A stretch of DNA of 26,624 nt. It comes from a virus. Location: positions 1-26,624 of IMG/VR virus record IMGVR_UViG_3300032245_000142; one strand, given 5' to 3'. The notes under the pieces were generated by a model. The model was not told the origin of the DNA, made no database searches, and was given only the letters and a program-made list of their open reading frames with translations. Shown here piece after piece: positions 5,856 through 25,468 of the stretch; the first letter of the stretch is position 1, and each line of letters starts with the position of its first letter. The translations under genes were made by a program, and so were the position numbers.

Positions 5856-8051
5856 TTAAACTGAAGTAATTGTTTGCCAAGCAGAGCCACTATAAACGCA
5901 AAGTTTAGCAAGAGTTGTGTCAAATACCATTAATCCAGCAGCAGGACTTGCAATAGCATTCTTTTGTGTAGTGGTCATATTAGGCATACGAACACCTTTT
6001 GTGGTGCTTTGTGCGTCTAATATTGCTGAAGCACTAGGACTACTTGTTCCTATACCTACATTACCTGCAGAGTCTATACGCATTTTTTCTGTTGCTGTTG
6101 TTGAACCAGAAGGTGAAGTAGAAAATGTTAATGCAGAACTTATGTCAGTATCTGATGTATATGTTTCTACAAGACCAAGAATATTAGCAAGGTTTCTGTT
6201 ATTTGTTCCACCATACCCTTGAAAAATTAATTGTCCAAGTTGGTCAGCAGAAGCAACAGCAGTAGGAGAAGCTAATGTTCCCCTGCCTTTTCTTATTGTT
6301 ATAGCTGCTGAACCAGCATTAGTAGAATATCTAGCAGAAATAATATTAGCGATTGTCCCATCAGTAGTAACCTGCAATGTTGCTGTTGAAGCACCATAAA
6401 TACTTAATGGAGATGTTGGCGTTGCTGTACCAATCCCTAATCTATTATTAGTATCATCCCAGAAGAAGTTAGCATTGTCTTGTGTGTATGTGCCTGAAGA
6501 ACCTGCAAATACAACTGAACCTGTAGTGAAAGCTGTAGATGTTCCTGTACCACCATTAGCAACTGGGAGTGTTCCTGTTACACCTGTAGTAAGTGGAAGT
6601 CCTGTAGTATTTGTTAAAACTCCTGAAGCTGGTGTACCCAATGCAGGGGTAGTTAATATTGGAGATGTAAGAGTTTTATTAGTAAGTGTTTGAGTATCTG
6701 ATGTACCTACAACTGTACCAGCAGGAGCAGCTACTGTGGCAATAGTGCCTAAACCTAATGTTGTTCTTTGTGCAGAAGAATCTACATCATCTAATAATGC
6801 TTTACCAGCTGTTGTTAAATCATAGGTTCCAGCAGTGCCAGCACCAGTAAATTGAATACCTTTATCAGCAGCGGAAGTTAATCCAGCAATAGCAACTAAA
6901 TCCACATCATAAGCTTGTACTGTTGTACCAATTGCTGCTGGTGCTAATGGAGTGTATGTTAAAGCAGTTGTAACATCACTTGATGTTAGTGTAATAGCAC
7001 CTGTACGAGTATTAAATGAAGTTACATTACCAGCACTACTAAATGCTGCAGGAAGCCAACTACTTCCATCCCATACATATAAAGAGTTTACAGCAGTATT
7101 CCAATAGATAGCTCCTGTTAAAAGGGCATTACCATCATTATCTACTGTGGGTGCAGAGGATTTAGCACCTAAATATCTGTCATCAAAAGCATCATAACTT
7201 GCTGCTGCATTCGTTGCAGATGTTGCAGCATTAGAAGCTTGTGTTGTAGCTATTCCTGCCTGTGTAGTTGCTGTAGAGGCACTTCCTGAGGCAGATGATG
7301 CACTTGAAGCTGCATTAGTAGCAGATGTAGAAGCATTACTAGCCTGAGTAGTAGCGGTTGAGGCTGAAGTTGATGCTGAAGTAGCCGAATTAGACGAATT
7401 AGTTGCTGAAGTACTAGCAGCAGTAGCTGAATTTGCAGCGTTAGTAGCTTGTGTAGAAGCAGTTGTAGCACTATTAGATGAGTTTGTAGCTGAGGTTGCT
7501 GCATTTGATGCACTAGTTGCTGCCGCATTTTGACTTGCTAGAGCAGCAGCTGCACTTGTAGCTGCGTTAGTAGATGTTGTAGTATTAGAAACAGTAGTCC
7601 ATAGACTTCCTGTCCATACAAACATATCATTAGTAGTACTATTAAAATATAAAGCACCTGTTTGTAATGTGTTTCCATCATTATCAACAGCAGGAGAGGT
7701 AGTCTTAACTCCTAGATAACGATCATCAAAGTTATCGTATAAAGTGGCTGTATTTGATGCAGATAAGGCAGCAGCGGTAGCTGATGCAGTGGCTGAGGAA
7801 GCAGAAGCACTAGCTGCACTTGCACTTGTGGCAGCATTACCAGCAGAAGTGGCAGCTGCAGTTTCAGAGTTAGCTCCATTAGTAGCAGCATTCTGAGCTG
7901 TACCAGCGTCAGTACCTGCACTAGAAGCACTAGAAGCAGCAGCAGTAGCACTAGCCGCAGCGTTAGCTGCAGCAGTTGAAGCTATACTGGCATCGCTACC
8001 TGGGGTAGCAGCAGAATCTCCAGTACCTCCTGGTCCACGAAAGATTGCCAT
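5856..8051 (-). CDS. tail fibre protein with Ala/Ser/Thr repeats
   Basis: A 731-residue fibre. Residues about 15-105 and 155-285 are nearly all Ala, Ser, Thr and Asn in heptad-like runs ([11 protein letters not shown]), as expected of a long trimeric shaft. Two 50-residue modules ([10 protein letters not shown] and [10 protein letters not shown]) interrupt them. The second half has the typical beta-prism phrases of phage fibres, with [20 protein letters not shown] near residue 500, [13 protein letters not shown], and [13 protein letters not shown] near the end. The final 65 residues ([20 protein letters not shown]) resemble a tip domain seen in phage and bacterial fibres. The ribosome site AAGGA is well placed before ATG 8051. 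The likely role is host receptor recognition. Confidence 0.85.
7047..7196 (-). repeat. tail fibre module, copy 2
   Basis: Encodes 50 residues beginning [10 protein letters not shown] and ending [10 protein letters not shown]. It is the partner of copy 1, with the same length and the same conserved VDNDGN turn, and points to an internal duplication of shaft plus module. Confidence 0.8.
7590..7739 (-). repeat. tail fibre module, copy 1
   Basis: Encodes 50 residues beginning [10 protein letters not shown] and ending in a Trp-rich strand ([11 protein letters not shown]). By hand alignment 29 of 50 residues equal copy 2, with no gap. Both copies sit between Ala/Ser/Thr shaft runs. Confidence 0.8.
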
Positions 8052-8059
8052 GCTATTCC

Positions 8060-8251
8060 TTATTTAAAGAGTTTGTTTAAAAAACTTTCTTTTTTCTCTT
8101 TAGTAGCTTTTGGCTTTTCTGCTTCTTCTTTTTTAGGAGATTTAGCAGTTTCCTCTACAGCTTCCCATGCTTGAGATGCTTCGTATGATTTTATTTCATC
8201 TTTTGTTAAAGCTGAATGGATTTCACCTGATGTTTTATTGATAAATTGCAT
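8060..8251 (-). CDS. 63-residue charged protein before the fibre gene
   Basis: A small protein with a folded-looking N-terminus ([20 protein letters not shown]), then a Lys/Glu/Ala-rich low-complexity linker and a basic-hydrophobic end (ESFLNKLFK). I do not recognise it. A strong ribosome site (TAGGAGACCACA) precedes the ATG. It starts 44 bases after the capsid terminator and ends 8 bases before the fibre start. No convincing promoter is visible in the gap, so read-through from the capsid unit may express it. Confidence 0.6.
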
Positions 8252-8294
8252 TGTGGTCTCCTAAGTTATATTTATGGATACTAATTAATACCCA

Positions 8295-8322
8295 TAAAAA
8301 TAGCCCCTCTTGCGAAGGGCTA
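8295..8322 (-). terminator. intrinsic terminator after the capsid gene
   Basis: On the minus strand TAGCCCTTC, loop GCAA, GAGGGGCTA (one G-U pair), then TTTTT. It begins 8 bases past the capsid stop, so it separates the capsid unit from the fibre/lysis genes and may lower downstream expression. Confidence 0.9.
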
Positions 8323-8329
8323 AGTTGCA

Positions 8330-9241
8330 TTACGCAGGAACTGCTAATGGAATACAAGCACCATCTCTAAGTTCTTTAACACCATAGAGAGTATCTGCAG
8401 TGTATAAAGTACCTAAATATTCTTGCTTATATTGTGTTTGTGAACGAACACCTACTTGTTCAACTAACACAGCAGCGTCTTTATGACCCATAAGGGCAAT
8501 ACGAGCACCACCAGTTGCAGTATCAACATTTGAAGATACAAATACTGGGATACCATAAAGATTACCAATTTCACCATTACGGATTGTGTTACCAGCACCA
8601 ACTTCACCTACGAAGGATTGTGCTACATATTCACTAATACCCATTAATGTGTTTCTTGCTGAAGGAGGAATCAAGAAGAAACGACCTTCCATTGGAACAT
8701 CATTGTCATCTAAGCGTTGTACAGTTCTACGGATACCAGCAGATGTCAATGCAGAAGCATTTGATGAACCTGATGTGTATGCAGTAGTACCATCACCACC
8801 GATGTATGCGTTACCATAAGTTACAGCTGTTCCACCATTAAATCCACGACCTAATTGGATTAGTGATGTGTCAACTTGTTTAGCTAAAGCATAACCAGCG
8901 TCATCTGTATAGAAACGACGGAGTGATGATAGAGCTTGTACTTCAACCATGTCTTCAATCATTCTTGAATATTCATAGTGTTTGTCAATCAATACAGCAA
9001 TATCTGTTTCAGTAGCTGCTTGAAGAGTTACTTGTGTATTTGCTGCTTTAATAGCTGCAACACCTCGTGCTGGTACAGGGATACGAACTGTATCACCCTT
9101 TTTACCAACGAAAGACATTTTTTTAAATAAATTTGCTGCTACTAAGTTCTTTTTGTACGCAGCTACAATCTCGTCACTCCAAATTTCAGGAATGAAGGTT
9201 GCTGCTGTGGTAATGGTTACTTGATCGGTACCTAAAGCCAT
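8330..9241 (-). CDS. major capsid protein
   Basis: A 303-residue protein starting MALGTDQVTITTAATFIPEI, with VGKKGDTVRIPVPARGVAAI near residue 46, IDKHYEYSRMIEDMVEVQAL near 86 and RRFYTDDAGYALAKQVDTSL near 108. This set is characteristic of a group of environmental podophage major capsid proteins thought to adopt the HK97-type shell fold. The scaffold gene lies directly upstream and a strong terminator directly downstream, the usual layout for the most abundant virion protein. The ribosome site AAAAGGA is well placed. Length fits the group. Confidence 0.92.
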   Translation of the reverse strand: MALGTDQVTITTAATFIPEIWSDEIVAAYKKNLVAANLFKKMSFVGKKGDTVRIPVPARGVAAIKAANTQVTLQAATETDIAVLIDKHYEYSRMIEDMVEVQALSSLRRFYTDDAGYALAKQVDTSLIQLGRGFNGGTAVTYGNAYIGGDGTTAYTSGSSNASALTSAGIRRTVQRLDDNDVPMEGRFFLIPPSARNTLMGISEYVAQSFVGEVGAGNTIRNGEIGNLYGIPVFVSSNVDTATGGARIALMGHKDAAVLVEQVGVRSQTQYKQEYLGTLYTADTLYGVKELRDGACIPLAVPA

Positions 9242-9264
9242 GATAAAAATCCTTTTCTAAAAAG

Positions 9265-10062
9265 TTAAATTACACGACCCTCTCGGTATGCTGCCATAAT
9301 CTCTTCAGACATAGCATCATATTTATCAGGATCGGACTGCATGAGTTTAATAATATCGCTTCGACGATATTTCTTCTTTGCAACAGATTCAGTAGCTCCT
9401 TGGCTTCCAATATCAGCAGCTTTTAATTGCTGGTCTCGGTCAACCTTAGATGTTTGTGCTACTTTTTTAGTGATAGACTGTTTATCATTCCATGTAGAGA
9501 GAAGTTCTTTAGCAGAATCATAGTCAAACTGTGTCTCTGCTCTAGCAAATAGCTCTGTACGGACTCTTGACCCTTTAATCCACTCAGCAAACTCAGGAGA
9601 TTGAACAACTTCACCTACATTAGGAAATTCAGATTTAAGCTGAGAAAGAGTTTGTTCTCTTTTCATCATTAATGCTTGATTCTGTGCTTCTTTAATTGCA
9701 GGGTGATTATCAATTGCCCTTTTTACTGCGGTTTTAGGTTCAATGAAAAAATCATCATCACTTTCTGTTACTTCTTGTGTCTTGGATTCCTTAGTTGTTT
9801 GAGTCTTAATAAAGTTGTCCACTACTTGTCGCAGTTCACCAACTTCACTGCCTTGACGACCTATAAGCCTTTCAGCTTCTTGGTGCATACCGACAATATC
9901 TTTTAGTGATTTACCACGATATTTTTCAGGGACATCATCTACTGGTTTAGTTTCTACTTTCTCTTCAACTTTGGGTTCTTCGACTTGTAAGTCTTGAGCC
10001 TTGTCTGTGAGACTAGAAGCTTCCATATCATTTACTAACACTTCATCTATTAATCCTGCCAT
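9265..10062 (-). CDS. capsid scaffolding protein
   Basis: A 265-residue, strongly charged, predicted mostly helical protein. Its acidic N-terminal half is rich in Glu, Val and Lys (QDLQVEEPKVEEKVETKPVD). KYRGKSLKDIVGMHQEAERL near residue 48 is typical of podophage scaffolds. The C-terminus is basic-helical (KKKYRRSDIIKLMQSDPDKY, from about 227), as expected of the part that binds capsid subunits. Position directly before the capsid gene supports the role of guiding procapsid assembly and then leaving. The ribosome site AGGAG is good. Confidence 0.85.
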   Translation of the reverse strand: MAGLIDEVLVNDMEASSLTDKAQDLQVEEPKVEEKVETKPVDDVPEKYRGKSLKDIVGMHQEAERLIGRQGSEVGELRQVVDNFIKTQTTKESKTQEVTESDDDFFIEPKTAVKRAIDNHPAIKEAQNQALMMKREQTLSQLKSEFPNVGEVVQSPEFAEWIKGSRVRTELFARAETQFDYDSAKELLSTWNDKQSITKKVAQTSKVDRDQQLKAADIGSQGATESVAKKKYRRSDIIKLMQSDPDKYDAMSEEIMAAYREGRVI

Positions 10063-10101
10063 ATTATTTCTCCTGTGCGTTTAGCATTTTAGGAAAGAAT
10101 T

Positions 10102-10335
10102 TCAAGCGGCATTCTGCTTTCGTTCTTCAGCCAATTTTTGTTTACGCTTTTTATCCCAAGCATCAGCTGCACCTGGAAAGCTTCCTGACCAACCCTCTAA
10201 ACTAACTCTAGGTGCACTGATAATTTTATCAGCGTTAGAATTGCATTTAGGGCATGGAAAAGTTTGTGTGTACTCCGTTAATTCCTCAAAGTGATTATCA
10301 CAAGTGGAACAATGGAACTCAAACAACTTCTTCAT
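10102..10335 (-). CDS. FmdB-type zinc ribbon protein
   Basis: A 77-residue protein with two CxxC knuckles: FHCSTCDNHFEEL and FPCPKCNSNADKI. This is the FmdB/putative regulatory zinc ribbon fold, common as a short gene between portal and scaffold in many tailed phages. The C-terminus is Lys-rich. The ATG overlaps the 3' end of the preceding gene by 17 bases, indicating coupled translation. The role is unknown; zinc binding is well supported by the four cysteines. Confidence 0.8.
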   Translation of the reverse strand: MKKLFEFHCSTCDNHFEELTEYTQTFPCPKCNSNADKIISAPRVSLEGWSGSFPGAADAWDKKRKQKLAEERKQNAA

Positions 10336-10561
10336 TCTTTAACTCCTCGTAGGCTTGCTCTGAAGCACCTTTAAGCGACAGAATCCATTGAAGTATATCT
10401 ATTTGACCTTTTCGTTTATGAAACTCTTCAAACGAATCAGCCGTATTAATTTTATTATATGTATCAAATAGGTTTTGAGTGTCTTCTATGAAGTCTTCCC
10501 AACCTTTTGTAGCCATAGTGCTAAATCTATTTTCATAGTAATCTTGTAATTCTCGTTCCAT
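10319..10561 (-). CDS. conserved helical protein of the head cluster
   Basis: An 80-residue, acidic, predicted helical protein (NRFSTMATKGWEDFIEDTQN, then HKRKGQIDILQWILSLKG). Similar short proteins stand between portal and scaffold in other podophages; their function is not known to me. The ribosome site AAAGG lies before the ATG at 10561. No cysteines or membrane segments are seen. The KGQIDILQWIL phrase resembles a helix found in several phage head-cluster proteins, but I cannot tie it to a role. Confidence 0.65.
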   Translation of the reverse strand: MERELQDYYENRFSTMATKGWEDFIEDTQNLFDTYNKINTADSFEEFHKRKGQIDILQWILSLKGASEQAYEELKNEEVV

Positions 10562-10586
10562 CTATTGCCTTTTTAATAAAAGTAGA

Positions 10587-10952
10587 TTATTGATGCTTTT
10601 CTAAATATTTCATAGCTTCTAATAAAAGATTAGGATCATCATTAAACATTCCTAAGCCCATATTACATTTACTACAGAGCAATTGTCTAACTTTACCAGT
10701 TTCATGACAATGATCTACAGCAAGAAGTCTTGAATTATCTTTATTCCTTTTTCTGCATATAGCACAAACACCTAATTGATCTATTAGTAAGTCTTCATAC
10801 TCTTCTAAAGTAATACTATAGTATCTTTGTAAATCTTTTCTTTTTCTAGCATCTTTTCTGCAAACTTCACAAGTTTGATGCCTAGGGTCAGATTTATAGA
10901 TCCTTGGTTTAAGTTTTTCTTGACAATATTTACATTTTCTGATATTAATCAT
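10587..10952 (-). CDS. endonuclease VII / HNH-type nuclease
   Basis: A 121-residue nuclease. It has an N-terminal CxxC pair set (Cys7/10, Cys28/31) and the endonuclease VII-like core: LGVCAICRKRN, LLAVDHCHETGKVRQLLCSK and CNMGLGMF, with DHCH around residues 80-83 and zinc pairs at 63/66 and 93/96. The family cuts branched or unusual DNA and also includes stand-alone homing-type nucleases. I start at ATG 10952 (MINIRKCKYC), although the frame is open up to a TTG at 10964 inside the -10 box. It has its own promoter, so a mobile origin or a packaging role (junction resolution) are both possible. Confidence 0.85.
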   Translation of the reverse strand: MINIRKCKYCQEKLKPRIYKSDPRHQTCEVCRKDARKRKDLQRYYSITLEEYEDLLIDQLGVCAICRKRNKDNSRLLAVDHCHETGKVRQLLCSKCNMGLGMFNDDPNLLLEAMKYLEKHQ

Positions 10953-10954
10953 CT

Positions 10955-10992
10955 TATATAACAATTATAGCATAGAAATCTTACTTTGTCAA
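10955..10992 (-). promoter_or_regulatory. sigma70 promoter with palindromic -10 box (copy 2 of 3)
   Basis: Minus strand: -35 TTGACA at 10992-10987, a spacer of 17, -10 TATAAT at 10969-10964, then TGTTATATA. The -35 lies in the last codons of the portal gene. The expected transcription start (about 10957) is only some 4 bases before the nuclease ATG, so that mRNA would be nearly leaderless; downstream head genes are probably transcribed from here too. Confidence 0.85.
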
Positions 10993-12936
10993 GGGTTTAT
11001 TACTTGAACTCATTTGTTGCTTGACAATCTCTAAGTTTTGATCCATATCAGCTTCTTTAAGCATTAATTCAGCTATTTTAACCCTTCTATCAAACTCAGC
11101 AGCGATTTTATCGTCTTGGTTTGGTAGGTTTGTAGAGATAGCAGTCATAAGTTTAGCTTGCGTTTCTTGTGGTTTAGTCTGTATATCAACCACATTTTTA
11201 GCTGCAATAGTCTTATTAACCTGTACTTCTGACATAGTTTTCTCAACTTTAGACTGTGCATCTTGCATTTGAAGTTGAATTGCCATTTGTTGCATTTGTT
11301 GTTGTTGTGGATTAGGAGCAGTTGCTTGAGCAATTTGCTGTAGCAATCCATTCTTATTAGGAAGACTTGAGTTAGCAATCACACCTTGGATAAGGATTGG
11401 TGTAATTGGATTATCTGAGCCTAATGTTTTAAGTAGGTTAATGATTTGAAGTTGTTCTACTTCTCTTGCTAACATACCTAATGTTGAAGATGGAATAAAC
11501 TTCCAGTCTTTAACTGGAAACTCTTCAGGATTAAATTGCATAAATCTCCAAGCTGCCTTCTCAATAAATGGAATGAGGAATTGGTCTTGGAAATTTACTA
11601 ATGTGCGTTTATTTTTCTTGAGGATGCTAGAAAGCGTTACAGATAGTTCACCGCCAGCAGGTTGTGACTGCATAGATGCTGAATCTAATGTACCTGTAGC
11701 TTGTAATAGCATTGTTTCGAATGCTTGTGCAGTCTGTATGTTTCCACCATCTGTTTGACCAAACTTAAATGGCATAAGAATCTCAGATGGATTACCATTA
11801 GTAAGCACACTCTTACCAGGACGAATTTCAAACTTAGATCCTCTAGGTAAACGAGTTGCATCCATACCCATCATAGGTACAGTTGTAAGTGCTAGTGAGT
11901 CAAGATGGCTACGAAGTTGAGCATCAATAGCTTTTTGCATATTGTAGCCCTTCTCTGCAACACCCCTGCCCCAAAATCTATTAGGCACTGTATCATCTTG
12001 GTAAGCGATAACTGGACGATCCTTCATCATGTAAGGACTGCGTTCAGCTTTTAATAGTTTGCTATCATTACCAATAACAATAATGGCTTCTACTAAATCA
12101 CCATACTCTTCCATAAGGTCAGACTTCTCATCTTCACCTGTGCCTAAGATGTCAACGATCTCATCTTCTTTAGCGTCAAGTAAAGTTGCAGGTACTAAAC
12201 CATAGTAACGAATAAGTTTAATCTTATCGTCATTGTATTCTTCATCTAAGAAGGAAGCTTCTAAGTCAGGATCAGGTATTGAATCATCTTCAATATCAGT
12301 GTCTCTATAAACTCCTGATTTAACTCCCTCAGCTACTTTGTGTGCTGATACAAATTCTTCAATAGCTACACCAAGGGCATCATCAATAGATGTTGCTGTT
12401 GGATCAATAAGAAAGTTTTGTGGAGAGATTGGTTTTAATGATACAACTACAGATTCTTTTTCTTCAACACCAACTGCTACTGCATCTACTTCAGGCATCT
12501 GTCTAGTTGCAGGAACAAGTTCTTTAATTTTCTTAGTAGTGATCTCACCAATACCAGTACCATAGATAGAAGCTAAAAGAGTAATATCTCCAACTGCTTT
12601 ACGGATCTTATTCTTTTTAAATTTCTCTTTCATGTAGGCTTTAAGATACTCTACATCACGAGGATCTTTATCCATCATGTCATCATCAATATCAAATAGA
12701 TGATCGCCTTGACCAAAGATGGCTTCTTCAATGTCAGCTGTATGGTTTTCAATAGCTTGTTGTAAAGCTGGGGATGTAATACGGCTTCGTTCTGTATCTC
12801 TTAGACGATCTTCAGCAGCCCACTCACCTCTCCAAAGTCTTTCGAACTCTTTCCAATCTTCAAGATAATTAGTATCCCTGTGGAGTCTCCAATCCTCAAC
12901 ATATTCCATTACCCAATCAACTAATTTATTCGCCAT
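10981..12936 (-). CDS. portal protein
   Basis: A 651-residue protein with the start typical of podophage portals (VMEYVEDWRLHRDTNYLEDW). The sequence WKEFERLWRGEW and SRITSPALQQAIENHTADIE follow near residues 27-70. Central phrases such as PISPQNFLIDPTATSIDDA, PVIAYQDDTVPNRFWGRGVA (near 310) and a Gln/Met-rich C-terminal helical region (QQQQMQQMAIQLQMQD) fit the family. The portal forms the dodecameric ring for DNA entry and tail attachment. The ribosome site GAGGA is clear; the start overlaps the upstream gene by 11 bases. Its 3' end contains the promoter of the nuclease gene. Confidence 0.9.
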   Translation of the reverse strand: MANKLVDWVMEYVEDWRLHRDTNYLEDWKEFERLWRGEWAAEDRLRDTERSRITSPALQQAIENHTADIEEAIFGQGDHLFDIDDDMMDKDPRDVEYLKAYMKEKFKKNKIRKAVGDITLLASIYGTGIGEITTKKIKELVPATRQMPEVDAVAVGVEEKESVVVSLKPISPQNFLIDPTATSIDDALGVAIEEFVSAHKVAEGVKSGVYRDTDIEDDSIPDPDLEASFLDEEYNDDKIKLIRYYGLVPATLLDAKEDEIVDILGTGEDEKSDLMEEYGDLVEAIIVIGNDSKLLKAERSPYMMKDRPVIAYQDDTVPNRFWGRGVAEKGYNMQKAIDAQLRSHLDSLALTTVPMMGMDATRLPRGSKFEIRPGKSVLTNGNPSEILMPFKFGQTDGGNIQTAQAFETMLLQATGTLDSASMQSQPAGGELSVTLSSILKKNKRTLVNFQDQFLIPFIEKAAWRFMQFNPEEFPVKDWKFIPSSTLGMLAREVEQLQIINLLKTLGSDNPITPILIQGVIANSSLPNKNGLLQQIAQATAPNPQQQQMQQMAIQLQMQDAQSKVEKTMSEVQVNKTIAAKNVVDIQTKPQETQAKLMTAISTNLPNQDDKIAAEFDRRVKIAELMLKEADMDQNLEIVKQQMSSSNKPLTK

Positions 12937-13405
12937 TATTAAGTTCCTCTTTATCGTCGGTTAAAATATTTTTATACTGAGGGAGTTGCATTTTCTCATC
13001 ATCTATTGGACCACCCATAAGTTGATGGTCACAAGTTCTAACTGGAGAACAAGTAATATCAAGGAGTGTGCAATAGGCTTGTGGAGTTGACTCAATATCT
13101 TTCCATTTAGGAGTTAATGGAAGTCCTGATGCTTTTAAATCTTTAGCTGGAAGGTTTGCTATACAGTTTTTAATTACTTCGGCATTTACATAGAAACGAC
13201 AATTGTTACAAAGTCTTCCTCTAGCATCGCCAATAGGTACATTCCATTTAGTAGCTTTGTCTTGCCAAAATTCATCATTGGGTACTGTAGGATTGCCTGG
13301 TCCAAGTCCATCATACTCAATTGCTTTTAAGTGGTTCTTAATATTTAAAGAATTACTTTGAAGCGGTAAGGGACAGATGTCTAGTTCTGAAAATATTTTT
13401 GCCAT
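12926..13405 (-). CDS. Cys-rich protein between terminase and portal
   Basis: A 159-residue protein with a cysteine-rich middle: RGRLCNNCRFYVNAEVIKNC near residues 63-83, then YCTLLDITCSPVRTCDH near 111-127. Cysteines in CxxC and spaced pairs suggest a zinc or iron-sulfur site. The ALxGPGNPTVPNDEFW-like N-terminal part is also seen in related phages, where the gene always stands between terminase and portal as far as I recall. Function unknown. It starts directly at the terminase stop (TAA-ATG) with AGGA 7 bases upstream, and is coupled to the portal gene. Confidence 0.65.
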   Translation of the reverse strand: MAKIFSELDICPLPLQSNSLNIKNHLKAIEYDGLGPGNPTVPNDEFWQDKATKWNVPIGDARGRLCNNCRFYVNAEVIKNCIANLPAKDLKASGLPLTPKWKDIESTPQAYCTLLDITCSPVRTCDHQLMGGPIDDEKMQLPQYKNILTDDKEELNNGE

Positions 13406-14662
13406 TTAGTATCCTGATATAAGGTCAATTACTTGGTACTCTTCTTCTTCATAATCCTGGAAGTACTCTACTATTTGAATCTGATCTATGTATGCTAAAG
13501 CATCCACCAAGTCATCATGAAGCAAATGATTAGGAAAATTAACAAGCTGATCGATAAACTCATTGTTCCAATCTCCCATGTTAAGTGTAACTTTTCCATG
13601 TTCAAATCTTCCCTGTAAAGCCCATACGATACGATCTGTTTTCTTTTGGTTTCCATGAGTGACATCATCTATTCTAAAATAGTGATTATTCCTTCTCATT
13701 AAATCTAATAGGTAAGGAAGTGCAGCATTCTTTAAGCTACCCTTTTCAATACCAACAGCAACTGGTTCATACTTTATCACTGTCTTAATAATTTGTTCGC
13801 AGGTTTCTTTAATATCCCAGCGACCATGAATAATATCTGCTACCCACCATCCACCTTCGTGAACTTTAACTACCGCTATAGCTGTTTCATCCAGTTTACT
13901 ATTCTTGTTGCCTGACTCTTTATCGACATTAATAAAACCAGCCAAGTCAACTGTGATAAAATAACGACCATCATCAGGTTCTTCTTCATCAATCTTTATC
14001 CAATCTTCTTTAAAAATATCTCTGCTGGCAGCTTCAAATGATGCTAGAAACTCTTGCCTAAAAGCAAAGCTGGACATTGATTGTTTAGCAGCTTCAATTT
14101 CTTTTGCAGGGATTAAGGGGTTATCATAAGATGAGTAATGGAATCCTTTCCACTCTACATCTTTACCACTCTCTGCATATTTATATAATTCATAAAAGTG
14201 ATTACGACCTTTAGGAGTTCCTATGAACATAGCTCCACCTTGTACATCAGCTAGAGCTGGTCGAAGGATTTGTTCCCAAACATTTGGTTTAATGTCTGCG
14301 TACTCATCAATCACTACGAATGCTAGTCCAACACCACGAAGGGTATCAGGTCTATCTGCACCTTTTAAGAAAATCTTTCTTCCGTTTACCAATGTAAGGA
14401 TGGAAGTGTTTTCATGTGCAGCAGCAATTACTTCATGTCCTAGTTCCTTTAGTAACCCCCAAAGAATATCTTTAGCTTGTTGGTAGGTTGGAGCAACATA
14501 GAACACATCTTTACTTTTACTCTTTAAGGCTTCAATGAGAAGCATCCATGCAGCTAATCGACTCTTACCAAATCGTCGCCCTGCAGCTACAACTTTAAAT
14601 CTTGTCTTGTCATTAAAAACTTCTAGCTGCTTATCATGCAGCTTTACCTGTAAATTAGCCAA
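13406..14662 (-). CDS. terL: terminase large subunit
   Basis: A 418-residue DNA-packaging motor. The ATPase domain has Walker A (VVAAGRRFGKS, residues 24-34) and Walker B (FVVIDE, 115-120), and a coupling-motif-like FIGTPKGRNHFYE near 146. The nuclease domain begins about residue 230 with YFITVDLAGFINVD and continues with VGIEKGSLKNAALPY and a C-terminal LLHDDLVDALAYIDQIQ, supplying the acidic metal ligands. It starts with TTG at 14662, directly after the stop of the upstream gene and without a clear ribosome site, so coupling and weak initiation are likely. No ATG lies before Walker A, which supports TTG. Confidence 0.93.
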   Translation of the reverse strand: MANLQVKLHDKQLEVFNDKTRFKVVAAGRRFGKSRLAAWMLLIEALKSKSKDVFYVAPTYQQAKDILWGLLKELGHEVIAAAHENTSILTLVNGRKIFLKGADRPDTLRGVGLAFVVIDEYADIKPNVWEQILRPALADVQGGAMFIGTPKGRNHFYELYKYAESGKDVEWKGFHYSSYDNPLIPAKEIEAAKQSMSSFAFRQEFLASFEAASRDIFKEDWIKIDEEEPDDGRYFITVDLAGFINVDKESGNKNSKLDETAIAVVKVHEGGWWVADIIHGRWDIKETCEQIIKTVIKYEPVAVGIEKGSLKNAALPYLLDLMRRNNHYFRIDDVTHGNQKKTDRIVWALQGRFEHGKVTLNMGDWNNEFIDQLVNFPNHLLHDDLVDALAYIDQIQIVEYFQDYEEEEYQVIDLISGY

Positions 14663-14998
14663 TTAGAATTGTTTAATATAATTTAACATCAAAGATTTTT
14701 GTTCAGGAGACAATTGTTCAAACTTAGCTTGGAAAGTATTTGGACCTGAGGAATAAGAAGCGTCAATACCAGTGGCTTTAAAATCTCCCATACCTTGCTT
14801 AGGCATATAGTACCCTTGACCAGAGACTCCAACATTAAGATTGGCATTATCCATAGGAATGTCTATTCCCACTCTTCCGCCAGCCCCCATGCCTAACGAC
14901 CCACCTCCACCACCCATAGACAAATCAAGTCTAGGTTTAGGAATGATAGCGTAAGGGGTAAACTTATCTTCTATGCTCATGTCTTCGTTATTGTCCAT
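14663..14998 (-). CDS. glycine-rich conserved phage protein
   Basis: The frame is open from 15043, but I choose ATG 14998, which overlaps the small terminase stop by 11 bases and gives MDNNEDMSIEDKFTPYAI, 111 residues. It contains a Gly stretch (LSMGGGGGSLGMGAGGRVGI), then beta-like sequence (NANLNVGVSGQGYYMP) and a helical C-terminus. I recognise the layout from other podophages, where it lies between the two terminase genes; its function is unknown. The upstream GAGGA is somewhat far (11 bases), so coupled translation is likely. Confidence 0.65.
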   Translation of the reverse strand: MDNNEDMSIEDKFTPYAIIPKPRLDLSMGGGGGSLGMGAGGRVGIDIPMDNANLNVGVSGQGYYMPKQGMGDFKATGIDASYSSGPNTFQAKFEQLSPEQKSLMLNYIKQF

Positions 14999-15640: not shown

Positions 15641-15669
15641 CTTGACAAACAGAATCTCTTCTGTTATAA
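15641..15669 (+). promoter_or_regulatory. consensus sigma70 promoter, plus strand
   Basis: TTGACA at 15641-15646, a spacer of 17, TATAAT at 15664-15669: a perfect match. It lacks the palindromic box of the three minus-strand sites. The first plus-strand gene starts 1 kb away, so its transcript would first run through the A/T tract and antisense to pqqA. It probably feeds the early block. Confidence 0.8.
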
Positions 15670-15675
15670 TAAGAT

Positions 15676-15778
15676 CTTTAATATATATATATATATAATA
15701 ATATATATTAATATATATAATATAATATATTAATAATAATATATATAAATATAATAATATATAATATAATATAAATAA
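15676..15778. repeat. 103-base tract of A and T only
   Basis: Every base from 15676 to 15778 is A or T, mostly TA and AATAT steps. No frame with a ribosome site is seen. Such tracts melt easily; in the divergent region of a phage this could be an origin unwinding element, but nothing else proves it. Confidence 0.75.
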
Positions 15779-15802
15779 CAAAGCCAGCTTTAAGGGCTGG
15801 CT
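15771..15802 (-). terminator. intrinsic terminator of the pqqA unit
   Basis: Minus strand: AGCCAGC, loop CCTTAAA, GCTGGCT, then TTGTTATTTAT. The 7-base stem is perfect and the T-run is moderate. It stands 26 bases past the pqqA stop. Confidence 0.75.
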
Positions 15803-15828: not shown

Positions 15829-15900
15829 CTATTTGTTCATAACATACATTGTAACTTCAAATCCAAAACGCATTTCAGTAGCAGCTGGTTTTGTCCACAT
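15829..15900 (-). CDS. pqqA: PqqA, PQQ precursor peptide
   Basis: A 23-codon gene. The peptide begins [14 protein letters not shown] and goes on EVTMYVMNK. Length, the MWxKP start, the RxGxEVTxY core and the basic end equal bacterial PqqA. Glu15 and Tyr19, the two residues that PqqE (with the chaperone PqqD) links and that become the PQQ carbon skeleton, are in place. GAGGAG stands 7 bases before the ATG. The gene has its own promoter (15949-15977) and terminator (15771-15802). No pqqB-F is visible, so host enzymes would process it. It is expected to raise PQQ supply for host quinoprotein dehydrogenases (for example methanol or glucose dehydrogenase) during infection; that effect is inference. 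Confidence 0.93.
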
Positions 15901-15948
15901 GGTTATTCTCCTCGTTAAGTTAATATAAACTTTTCAGTCTATAATATT

Positions 15949-15977
15949 ATTATACTCCCTTTCTTAAGATTTGTCCT
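15949..15977 (-). promoter_or_regulatory. probable promoter of pqqA
   Basis: Minus strand: -10 TATAAT at 15954-15949, a 17-base spacer, and -35 AGGACA at 15977-15972 (4 of 6). The -10 is part of a perfect inverted repeat, TATAATA-A-TATTATA, which recalls the palindromic box of the late promoters. Confidence 0.6.
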
Positions 15978-23406: not shown

Positions 23407-24564
23407 ATGAACACAATAATCTTAGATGTAGAAACAACAATCCATGCTAATGGAAACCCATTCTCTGAAAGGAATAAACTTTGCTATGTCGGACTTCATC
23501 ATAATAATGTTTCTAGTGTATTTGACATTGAATTTAGTGGAAATCCGTACAGGGAGAAACTTGACGCTATACAGAATGTGCTTGACAATGACGCTATTCT
23601 TGTTGGCTTTAACATTAAGTTTGACTTGCATTGGATAAGAAAATATGGAATTAGTTTTGTGGATAAGCGTATTTGGGATTGTCAGTTGGTACATTTTATT
23701 CTCACTAACCAACAGAATCCCTATCCGTCACTTAATGGTGTCGCTGAGTACTATGGTTTGGGTAGTAAGCTTGATGTTGTTGCTACTGAGTATTGGGGGA
23801 ATGGGATAGACACACCTGATGTTCCTAAAGACATTCTTGAGGATTATTTGAAACAAGACTTACTTCTAACAGAGGCAGTGTTTAAACGGCAGTATGAGGA
23901 AGTAATGGCTCTTCCACAAGAACGACAACGATTGATTAGCTTACACAATCAGGACTTGCTTGTTTTAGAAGAGATGGAATATAATGGAATTTTATTTGAT
24001 GAGGATAGGAGCTTAGAACTTGGTGCGGAACTGGAAAAGGAAGTCGGATTATTGGACGAAGAATTGGCTAAGACTTTTAATATTATTGGTTTTAACTTTA
24101 ATAGCAAAGATCATCTTAGTTGTTTGTTGTATGGTGGAAGGATTACTATACCCAAAAAAGAAGTTATCGGAACTTATAAAACTGGTGAACGAAAAGGTCA
24201 AGTCAAAGAAGGGTGGATAGATTACACTCATGATATGCCTAGACTAATTGAACCTCTAAAAGGAAGTGAGCTAAAGAAAGATGGGTACTATAGCACAGAT
24301 GAACAGACGCTTAGAAGCCTTAGGGGCACAGGAGTTTCTAAAGGAATTATTCAACTTATCCTTAAAAGGAGTGGACTTGAAAAGCGTAGAGGGACTTACT
24401 ATTCAGGACTCCCTGAACTCAGAGAGAATCAAGGTTGGAGTAAAGGTACGCTACATGGACAACTCAACCAGTGCGTTGCTAGAACTGGTCGCCTTAGTTC
24501 CTCAAAGCCGAATCTACAGAATTTTGATGGAGAAATAAAAGAGTTATTTTACTCAAGATATTAA
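23407..24564 (+). CDS. DNA polymerase family A, N-terminal chain (exonuclease and thumb)
   Basis: A 385-residue protein. The 3'-5' proofreading domain shows TIILDVETT (Asp-x-Glu), VGFNIKFDLHWI and YLKQDLLLT. It continues into a family A polymerase with LVLEEMEYNGILFDEDR, TDEQTLRSLRG and ARTGRLSSSKPNLQNF near residue 365. It then stops at KELFYSRY with TAA. In intact relatives this phrase leads within a few residues into motif A, which here begins the next-but-one gene. So this chain holds the exonuclease and the region before the palm. No strong ribosome site is seen before ATG 23407. Confidence 0.9.
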   Translation: MNTIILDVETTIHANGNPFSERNKLCYVGLHHNNVSSVFDIEFSGNPYREKLDAIQNVLDNDAILVGFNIKFDLHWIRKYGISFVDKRIWDCQLVHFILTNQQNPYPSLNGVAEYYGLGSKLDVVATEYWGNGIDTPDVPKDILEDYLKQDLLLTEAVFKRQYEEVMALPQERQRLISLHNQDLLVLEEMEYNGILFDEDRSLELGAELEKEVGLLDEELAKTFNIIGFNFNSKDHLSCLLYGGRITIPKKEVIGTYKTGERKGQVKEGWIDYTHDMPRLIEPLKGSELKKDGYYSTDEQTLRSLRGTGVSKGIIQLILKRSGLEKRRGTYYSGLPELRENQGWSKGTLHGQLNQCVARTGRLSSSKPNLQNFDGEIKELFYSRY

Positions 24565-24575
24565 AGGAGAAACTT

Positions 24576-24755
24576 ATGAATGACGATTATGATTATGATG
24601 TACCTGATATGAACCCTTCAGAAGATGAAGCATACTTCTATCACACTCTTGGAGACTTTGAGAGCTATGTTAAAGACTTAGGTGCTAAGTATGTTTTAAC
24701 AGAGATGAATGAGGATACTCGAAAGCTTTTAGAAGCAGCATTTAAACAATGCTAA
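24576..24755 (+). CDS. 59-residue acidic protein between the polymerase chains
   Basis: A short ORF with a strong ribosome site (AAAGGAG, about 7 bases before ATG). It reads MNDDYDYDVPDMNPSEDEAY, then FYHTLGDFESYVKDLGAKYV and a helical end. It is very acidic at the N-terminus and has no family I can name. It lies exactly in the split of the DNA polymerase and overlaps the start of the C-terminal chain by 7 bases, so translation of the second chain probably depends on it. It might contact the polymerase, which is inference. Confidence 0.75.
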   Translation: MNDDYDYDVPDMNPSEDEAYFYHTLGDFESYVKDLGAKYVLTEMNEDTRKLLEAAFKQC

Positions 24756-25468
24756 TCCAGGGAGATGCCTCTGCACTTGAGTGGCGATGTGCTGCCTTCC
24801 TAAGTAAAGATAAAGTAGCTTATGAAGAGATTTGGAACAATGTAGATCAACACACTGACAACCAAACTCGCTTTGGTTTGCCTAGTCGTCTTATTGCTAA
24901 AACATTTGTATTTAGACTTATCTATGGAGGAAGTGCTTACTCCTACGCCAATGATCCAAACTTCGCTGAGGTAAGTAAAAGTGAGAAGTTTTGGCAAAAG
25001 ATTATAGACGAGTTCTATAACAAGTATAAGGGACTTCATAAATGGCACATTAAACTTATGCAAGAAGCTACAACGACTAAGATGGTTAAACTTCCTACTG
25101 GTAGAATCTATCAGTTTGAACCTGAATTAAGACGAGGGGAGAAAGTGTTCCCTCGCACCACAATTCTTAACTACCCTGTGCAAGGACTTGGGGCAGATTT
25201 GATGACACTGGCACGAGTATCTTTATATAACCGAATGAGGAAATTAAACTATGAAAAGGCGAGACTTGTTAATACAGTTCATGATTCCATTATTATTGAT
25301 TGTGATAGCAGCTTTACTAATACTTTAGCTAAGACAATGTTAGATGTATTTGAAGATGTTCCTAAGAACTTTCAGAAGATGTTTGGGACTGAATTTGATC
25401 TCCCAATGAAGGCAGAAGTACAGGTTGGAAATAATTGGAAAGATATGGAAATTTGGGTTGACAAGTAA
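24749..25468 (+). CDS. DNA polymerase family A, C-terminal chain (palm and fingers)
   Basis: A 239-residue protein beginning MLIQGDASALEWRCAAFLSK, which is motif A at its very N-terminus. Motif B is RLIAKTFVFRLIYGGSAYSY (Arg, Lys, Phe, Tyr-Gly), and motif C is NTVHDSIIIDC with the catalytic His-Asp. All residues for nucleotide transfer are present, while the exonuclease and thumb are on the separate upstream chain. No ribosome site stands before ATG 24749; coupling to the 59-codon gene is likely. Its last codons contain the -35 of the next promoter. Confidence 0.9.
   Translation: MLIQGDASALEWRCAAFLSKDKVAYEEIWNNVDQHTDNQTRFGLPSRLIAKTFVFRLIYGGSAYSYANDPNFAEVSKSEKFWQKIIDEFYNKYKGLHKWHIKLMQEATTTKMVKLPTGRIYQFEPELRRGEKVFPRTTILNYPVQGLGADLMTLARVSLYNRMRKLNYEKARLVNTVHDSIIIDCDSSFTNTLAKTMLDVFEDVPKNFQKMFGTEFDLPMKAEVQVGNNWKDMEIWVDK

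Follow-up and report, generated by a model that had tools for sequence, protein, structure and literature searches.

The viral pqqA gene and its setting

The window (the whole stretch of DNA analysed) is a virus record of 26,624 bases whose genome is of a podophage-like type. Its left arm, on the minus strand, carries the tail, major head, portal and terminase genes, and its right arm, on the plus strand, carries genes for a primase, a DnaB-like helicase and a DNA polymerase. At the junction of the two arms, about 1.2 kb upstream of terL, lies a short minus-strand open reading frame (ORF) that encodes PqqA, the precursor peptide of the cofactor PQQ. The features of this locus are the following:

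15782..15802 (-): intrinsic terminator-like hairpin AGCCAGCCCTTAAAGCTGGCT with a T-rich tail, closing the pqqA unit (from the sequence)
15829..15900 (-): pqqA, PQQ precursor peptide, 23 codons/72 bp (from the translation and matches to PF08042 and TIGR02107)
15844..15846 (-): codon of Tyr19, cross-link partner (from the translation; invariant in viral copies)
15856..15858 (-): codon of Glu15, cross-link partner (from the translation; invariant in viral copies)
15908..15913 (-): Shine-Dalgarno sequence GAGGAG, 7 nt before the ATG of pqqA
15949..15977 (-): sigma-70-like promoter AGGACA-17-TATAAT (sequence match; conserved in TerL relatives)
13406..14662 (-): terminase large subunit (TerL), the marker for finding relatives (phrog_2, E 2.7e-45)

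Judged by its sequence, the identity of the ORF as PqqA is firm. The sole match of the peptide in Pfam is PqqA PF08042 (E 6.4e-11; 42.4 bits at a cut-off of 21.1; model positions 1-19 of 19), and the sole match in NCBIfam is TIGR02107 (E 1.8e-10; 40.4 bits at a cut-off of 20; positions 1-21 of 21); with these E-values, the identity is not due to chance. No PHROGs family matches the peptide. The original prediction, which had read a minus-strand frame of 23 codons as PqqA with Glu15 and Tyr19 at the exact spacing, is thus borne out by the translation and by scores above both curated cut-offs; the two residues stand in the sequence E-V-T-M-Y, the E-x-x-x-Y spacing known for cross-linking by PqqE. 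The short-peptide search against PqqA and phage genomes that it had proposed returned both the PqqA profiles and further phage copies. Its remark that such a gene is too short for usual gene calling also proved apt: among the seven phage records viewed, pqqA is covered by no annotated feature in five and by nothing but an opposite-strand hypothetical ORF in two, and it is annotated as pqqA in none.

The DNA polymerase gene of the window is present as two plus-strand ORFs (23407-24564 and 24749-25468, together spanning 23407-25468), and these correspond to successive stretches of phrog_17. The split may be due to a frameshift, an inserted element or an assembly error.

Expression signals

A ribosome-binding site, a promoter and a terminator of its own had been predicted for the gene. 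The GAGGAG is present 7 nt 5' of the ATG, and of the 177 viral pqqA genes examined for a Shine-Dalgarno sequence, 175 have one, where about 14 are expected. The predicted terminator is likewise found as the hairpin at 15802-15782 (-), which is identical in two relatives (loci L299 and L306) and present as variants in four others (L297, L301, L303, L320); terminators lie 3' of 74 of the 173 viral pqqA genes assessed, as against 3 in shuffled sequences. The promoter stands as a match that is conserved in the TerL relatives, 15 of 26 of which match it in at least 10 of 12 positions (1.3 expected), but the single match is weaker evidence than had been stated, as matches of this kind are common by chance in the AT-rich DNA of the window (9 versus 6.1 in shuffles). 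Upstream of pqqA in the whole viral set, 90 sigma-70-like matches were counted versus 66 by chance; since this excess is modest, promoter conservation is claimed for the TerL relatives only.

A perfect (12/12) sigma-70 promoter with an extended -10 element (TTGACA-17-TATAAT) is located at 15642-15670 on the plus strand. Facing right, it leads into a (TA)-rich tract (about 15680-15780) that is followed by the bidirectional hairpin at 15782-15802, with no ORF directly after it. This promoter may serve a short RNA or an antisense reading of pqqA.

Distribution of pqqA among viral genomes

In a set of 50,697 phage records, none matches the TerL protein of the window at 60% identity or more, but 370 of its relatives are found in IMG/VR. 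Of the 44 relatives that either possess pqqA or extend upstream for 1.8 kb or more, 32 carry pqqA upstream of terL. Two of the remaining 12 have the gene elsewhere in the record, one ends just short of the place that pqqA occupies in a 100%-identical relative, and nine, mostly short fragments, remain without pqqA. A search with the PqqA HMM at the expected place in the TerL relatives uncovered no divergent copies. Hence, pqqA is a usual, although not a fixed, component of the phage group to which the window belongs.

Degenerate DNA patterns were used to find viral pqqA genes across IMG/VR. The core pattern is present in at least 120 contigs, and all 120 of the matches listed encode a complete PqqA. 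A pattern for a second class of PqqA, ending in MYI.NR, is also present in at least 120 contigs, and 114 of the 120 listed have a PqqA-like start; the sequences of this second class (loci L382-L495) suggest that some phages infect PQQ-making bacteria outside the Methylophilaceae. Alphaproteobacterial-type PqqA is rare in IMG/VR (4 contigs). Clustering of the pqqA loci by gene content yields 16 groups when two shared proteins are demanded and one large component when one suffices; as the result shifts with this threshold, we do not claim a number of phage lineages.

pqqA in cultured phages

A tblastn search detected pqqA in nine records of Methylophilales phage isolates (Venkman, P19250A, MEP301, MEP401/402 and four Melnitz records) and in one further, unrelated carrier, a podovirus from Manatee Spring. 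The cultured carriers differ widely, comprising Melnitz of the Kyanoviridae, MEP401/402 of the Zobellviridae, Venkman/P19250A and MEP301. Like the window, the Methylophilales isolates encode a PqqA of 23-24 amino acids without an annotation as pqqA; unlike it, they have unrelated genomes and other gene neighbours around pqqA. Queries with PqqA of the gamma-, Klebsiella- and alphaproteobacterial types found no further cultured phages. All other tblastn matches were to records labelled 'Acinetobacter phage'; the one viewed, MD-2021a (CAKLQF020000010.1; locus L009), was rejected as phage evidence, being a stretch of bacterial chromosome with a pqqABCDE operon, ppk and fur.

No pqq gene is mentioned in the main texts of the Melnitz, MEP-type OM43 phage and Venkman papers. 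Phage P19250A was said to encode none of the auxiliary metabolic genes reported in PMC7678222; the unannotated pqqA gene at positions 28085-28153 of KX815270.1 (5001-5072 of locus L004) corrects this statement. Among the open papers searched, there is no report of pqqA in cultured methylophages, but others could already say so. If phages of these hosts routinely carry the gene, its length of only 72 bp would explain why published genomes and gene surveys missed it.

Selection, age and mobility

The two residues that PqqE would cross-link were assessed with an N-terminal pattern that fixed nothing beyond residue 13 of the peptide and left both of them free; Glu15 and Tyr19 are each present in 120 of the 120 viral copies listed for it. 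In the 26 copies chosen by TerL, W2, P5, E9, R11-T17, Y19 and N22 are invariant; because W..P and GxExTxY were obligatory in the pattern by which these copies were read, invariance at those residues leans on the finding that the HMM uncovered no divergent copies. For these 26 copies, synonymous divergence is close to saturation and dN/dS equals 0.053; for the wider viral set, the ratio is 0.084 overall and 0.145 outside the core. By these measures of sequence divergence, viral pqqA is under purifying selection, i.e., it is maintained in phages.

The exact peptide of the window is encoded at 26 viral loci by 25 different coding sequences and at 24 cellular loci by 20 different sequences, and no coding sequence is common to the two groups. 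One peptide encoded by so many different viral sequences, none of them shared with hosts, argues that pqqA is old in phages and does not represent contamination. Together with the selection, the Shine-Dalgarno sequences and the terminators, this diversity gives pqqA the hallmarks of a translated and functional gene of long standing in phages. When a 10-kb stretch of Venkman is compared with the Manatee Spring podovirus at the megablast level, the only block in common is one of 85 nt, and this is the pqqA gene; its confinement to pqqA indicates that the gene moves between phages as a gene-sized piece.

Probable host and pathway partners

In a scan of bacteria and archaea, with 84,980 species represented by one genome each, a 12-residue PqqA motif was recorded in Methylotenera, Methylophilus, Methylobacillus, Methylovorus, OM43 and related proteobacterial assemblies. 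Judged from the peptide alone, the host of the window phage is most likely a methylotroph of the Methylophilaceae (OM43/Methylopumilus/Methylotenera group), and the earlier hint at a methylotrophic host gains support from these Methylophilaceae-type cellular records. All 120 sampled Methylophilaceae genomes possess pqqA, in 1-12 copies (median 4), and 113 of them have at least two. Twelve scattered copies are present in Methylotenera mobilis 13 (genome G008 of locus L223).

None of the 363 viral loci has pqqB-E near pqqA, while the same test was positive in 23 of 120 short host-type loci, and no pqqE above the cut-off was found in 50 whole pqqA-bearing viral records. These data support the earlier proposal that the phage would make use of the PqqB-F proteins of its host.

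No methanol dehydrogenase gene was seen in the small podophage-like genome of the window. The 72-kb viral contig IMGVR_UViG_3300025120_009955 (L500) encodes PqqA together with a methanol dehydrogenase (TIGR03075, 608 bits), a formate dehydrogenase alpha subunit (885 bits) and a quinoprotein-dehydrogenase-associated SoxYZ-like carrier (197.5 bits) whose gene lies about 110 nt from pqqA, all within about 9 kb (5989-14789). Further genes of this contig are those for a ribonucleotide reductase and GroEL, with curli-type genes (CsgG, CsgA/B-like) adjoining. From its gene content it looks like a large T4-type phage, with no capsid gene identified in the record.

A proposed role in PQQ supply

Methanol dehydrogenase, the enzyme through which methylotrophy is entered in the abundant marine OM43 and freshwater Methylopumilus bacteria, has PQQ as its cofactor, and every PQQ molecule formed uses up one PqqA. 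Since the peptide is destroyed in this way and the enzymes remain, a phage would need to bring along only the 72-bp consumable. The gene of the window is a homologue of a host metabolic gene with phage genes on both sides, and its peptide is identical to that of Methylophilaceae-type genomes. We consider it likely, with good confidence, that this is a genuine phage pqqA that acts as an auxiliary metabolic gene, supplying the consumable substrate of PQQ synthesis, leaving the chemistry to the host PqqB-F proteins and sustaining the PQQ of methanol dehydrogenase. In the envisioned sequence of events, the RNA polymerase of the host would transcribe the phage gene from its host-type promoter, PqqD would bind the peptide, PqqE would cross-link Glu15 and Tyr19, and a host protease would trim the cross-linked peptide before PqqB and PqqC complete PQQ. 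One more orphan pqqA, provided by the phage, would allow PQQ synthesis to go on after takeover, and methanol dehydrogenase would be kept supplied and the cell energised during infection.

Hosts raise the supply of the PQQ precursor through pqqA copy number: PMC9851590, in which the cross-linking by PqqE is also cited, describes a methylotroph whose five pqqA genes include three orphans. Higher PQQ levels upon overexpression of pqqA in Gluconobacter are cited in PMC7936290. A raised PQQ supply from phage pqqA is plausible by inference and backed by these published gene-dosage data; PqqA may nevertheless not be limiting, given the several pqqA copies of the host.

Among the alternatives, a decoy is improbable but the best of them: the phage peptide would flood PqqD/PqqE or the protease, lower or redirect PQQ, and so slow host respiration or starve rivals. 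It would indeed bind the same host proteins, and its effect might go in either direction, yet a decoy need not keep both side chains that are invariant in the 120 listed viral copies, and the pairing of pqqA with methanol and formate dehydrogenases in one large phage points to promotion. Slightly less probable still is a different modified peptide, a signal or a superinfection factor made by host radical-SAM enzymes. PqqA is a precursor of the RiPP type, and a RiPP family annotated as PqqA is co-expressed with defence systems (PMC11118758); against this, no modifying enzyme was identified near pqqA, and the sequence is that of the cofactor precursor made by the host, with many viral peptides matching the host one in every residue.

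A piece of host DNA picked up through recombination and useless to the phage would suit a small gene at module junctions that is missing in some relatives, placed elsewhere in others and common to unrelated phages. This reading is very unlikely and largely refuted, as a neutral gene would gather stops and amino-acid changes, whereas pqqA shows strong purifying selection at near-saturated synonymous divergence, conserved Shine-Dalgarno, promoter and terminator sequences, and presence in unrelated cultured phages. Host contamination or a chance ORF, for which only the public 'Acinetobacter phage' match that is a bacterial chromosome piece could be invoked, is refuted by the terminase, portal, major head, tail and replication genes flanking pqqA, by the lack of pqqB-E in all 363 viral loci and by HMM E-values near 1e-10.

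Returning to the supply of PQQ precursor as the preferred role, we favour, with less assurance, the broader view that pqqA is a near-core signature of methylotroph phages, passed among unrelated phages as a gene-sized cassette, with supply of the precursor generally limiting infection in hosts that depend on PQQ and the enzymes left to the host. If methylotroph phages routinely carry pqqA, viral infection would directly affect methanol oxidation in water bodies. The gene also provides a sequence marker by which phages can be linked to hosts that make PQQ, and the cultured phage-host pairs Venkman/H5P1 and MEP301/FZCC2181 are available for testing.

Comparison with known systems

A phage pqqA as such is already known: it was reported in 2020, together with methanol dehydrogenase, for the Lake Baikal phage population VP_266 (PMC7678222), and pqqA is listed among viral genes from reservoir sediment (PMC13188868). 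Like the window, VP_266 is a predicted Methylophilaceae phage with a PqqA for which support of methanol dehydrogenase was proposed; it differs in being a T4-like metagenomic contig with a methanol dehydrogenase of its own, whereas the window is a small podophage-like genome. New are the breadth of pqqA across unrelated methylophages, its orphan state, the selection upon it and its mobility from phage to phage.

The peptide of the window shares its length, the WTxP start and the EVTMY core with the bacterial PqqA (PF08042/TIGR02107) of Methylophilaceae and is identical to it at 24 cellular loci; the window gene differs from its Methylophilaceae counterparts as an orphan in a phage, with a promoter and terminator of its own and no coding sequence in common with them. 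Cyanophage psbA, which encodes the short-lived D1 protein, is an auxiliary metabolic gene of comparable logic, as in both cases the phage would supply a fast-consumed part of the energy machinery of its host. D1, however, is a protein subunit and is replaced once damaged, whereas PqqA is a peptide that is destroyed in order to yield a cofactor.
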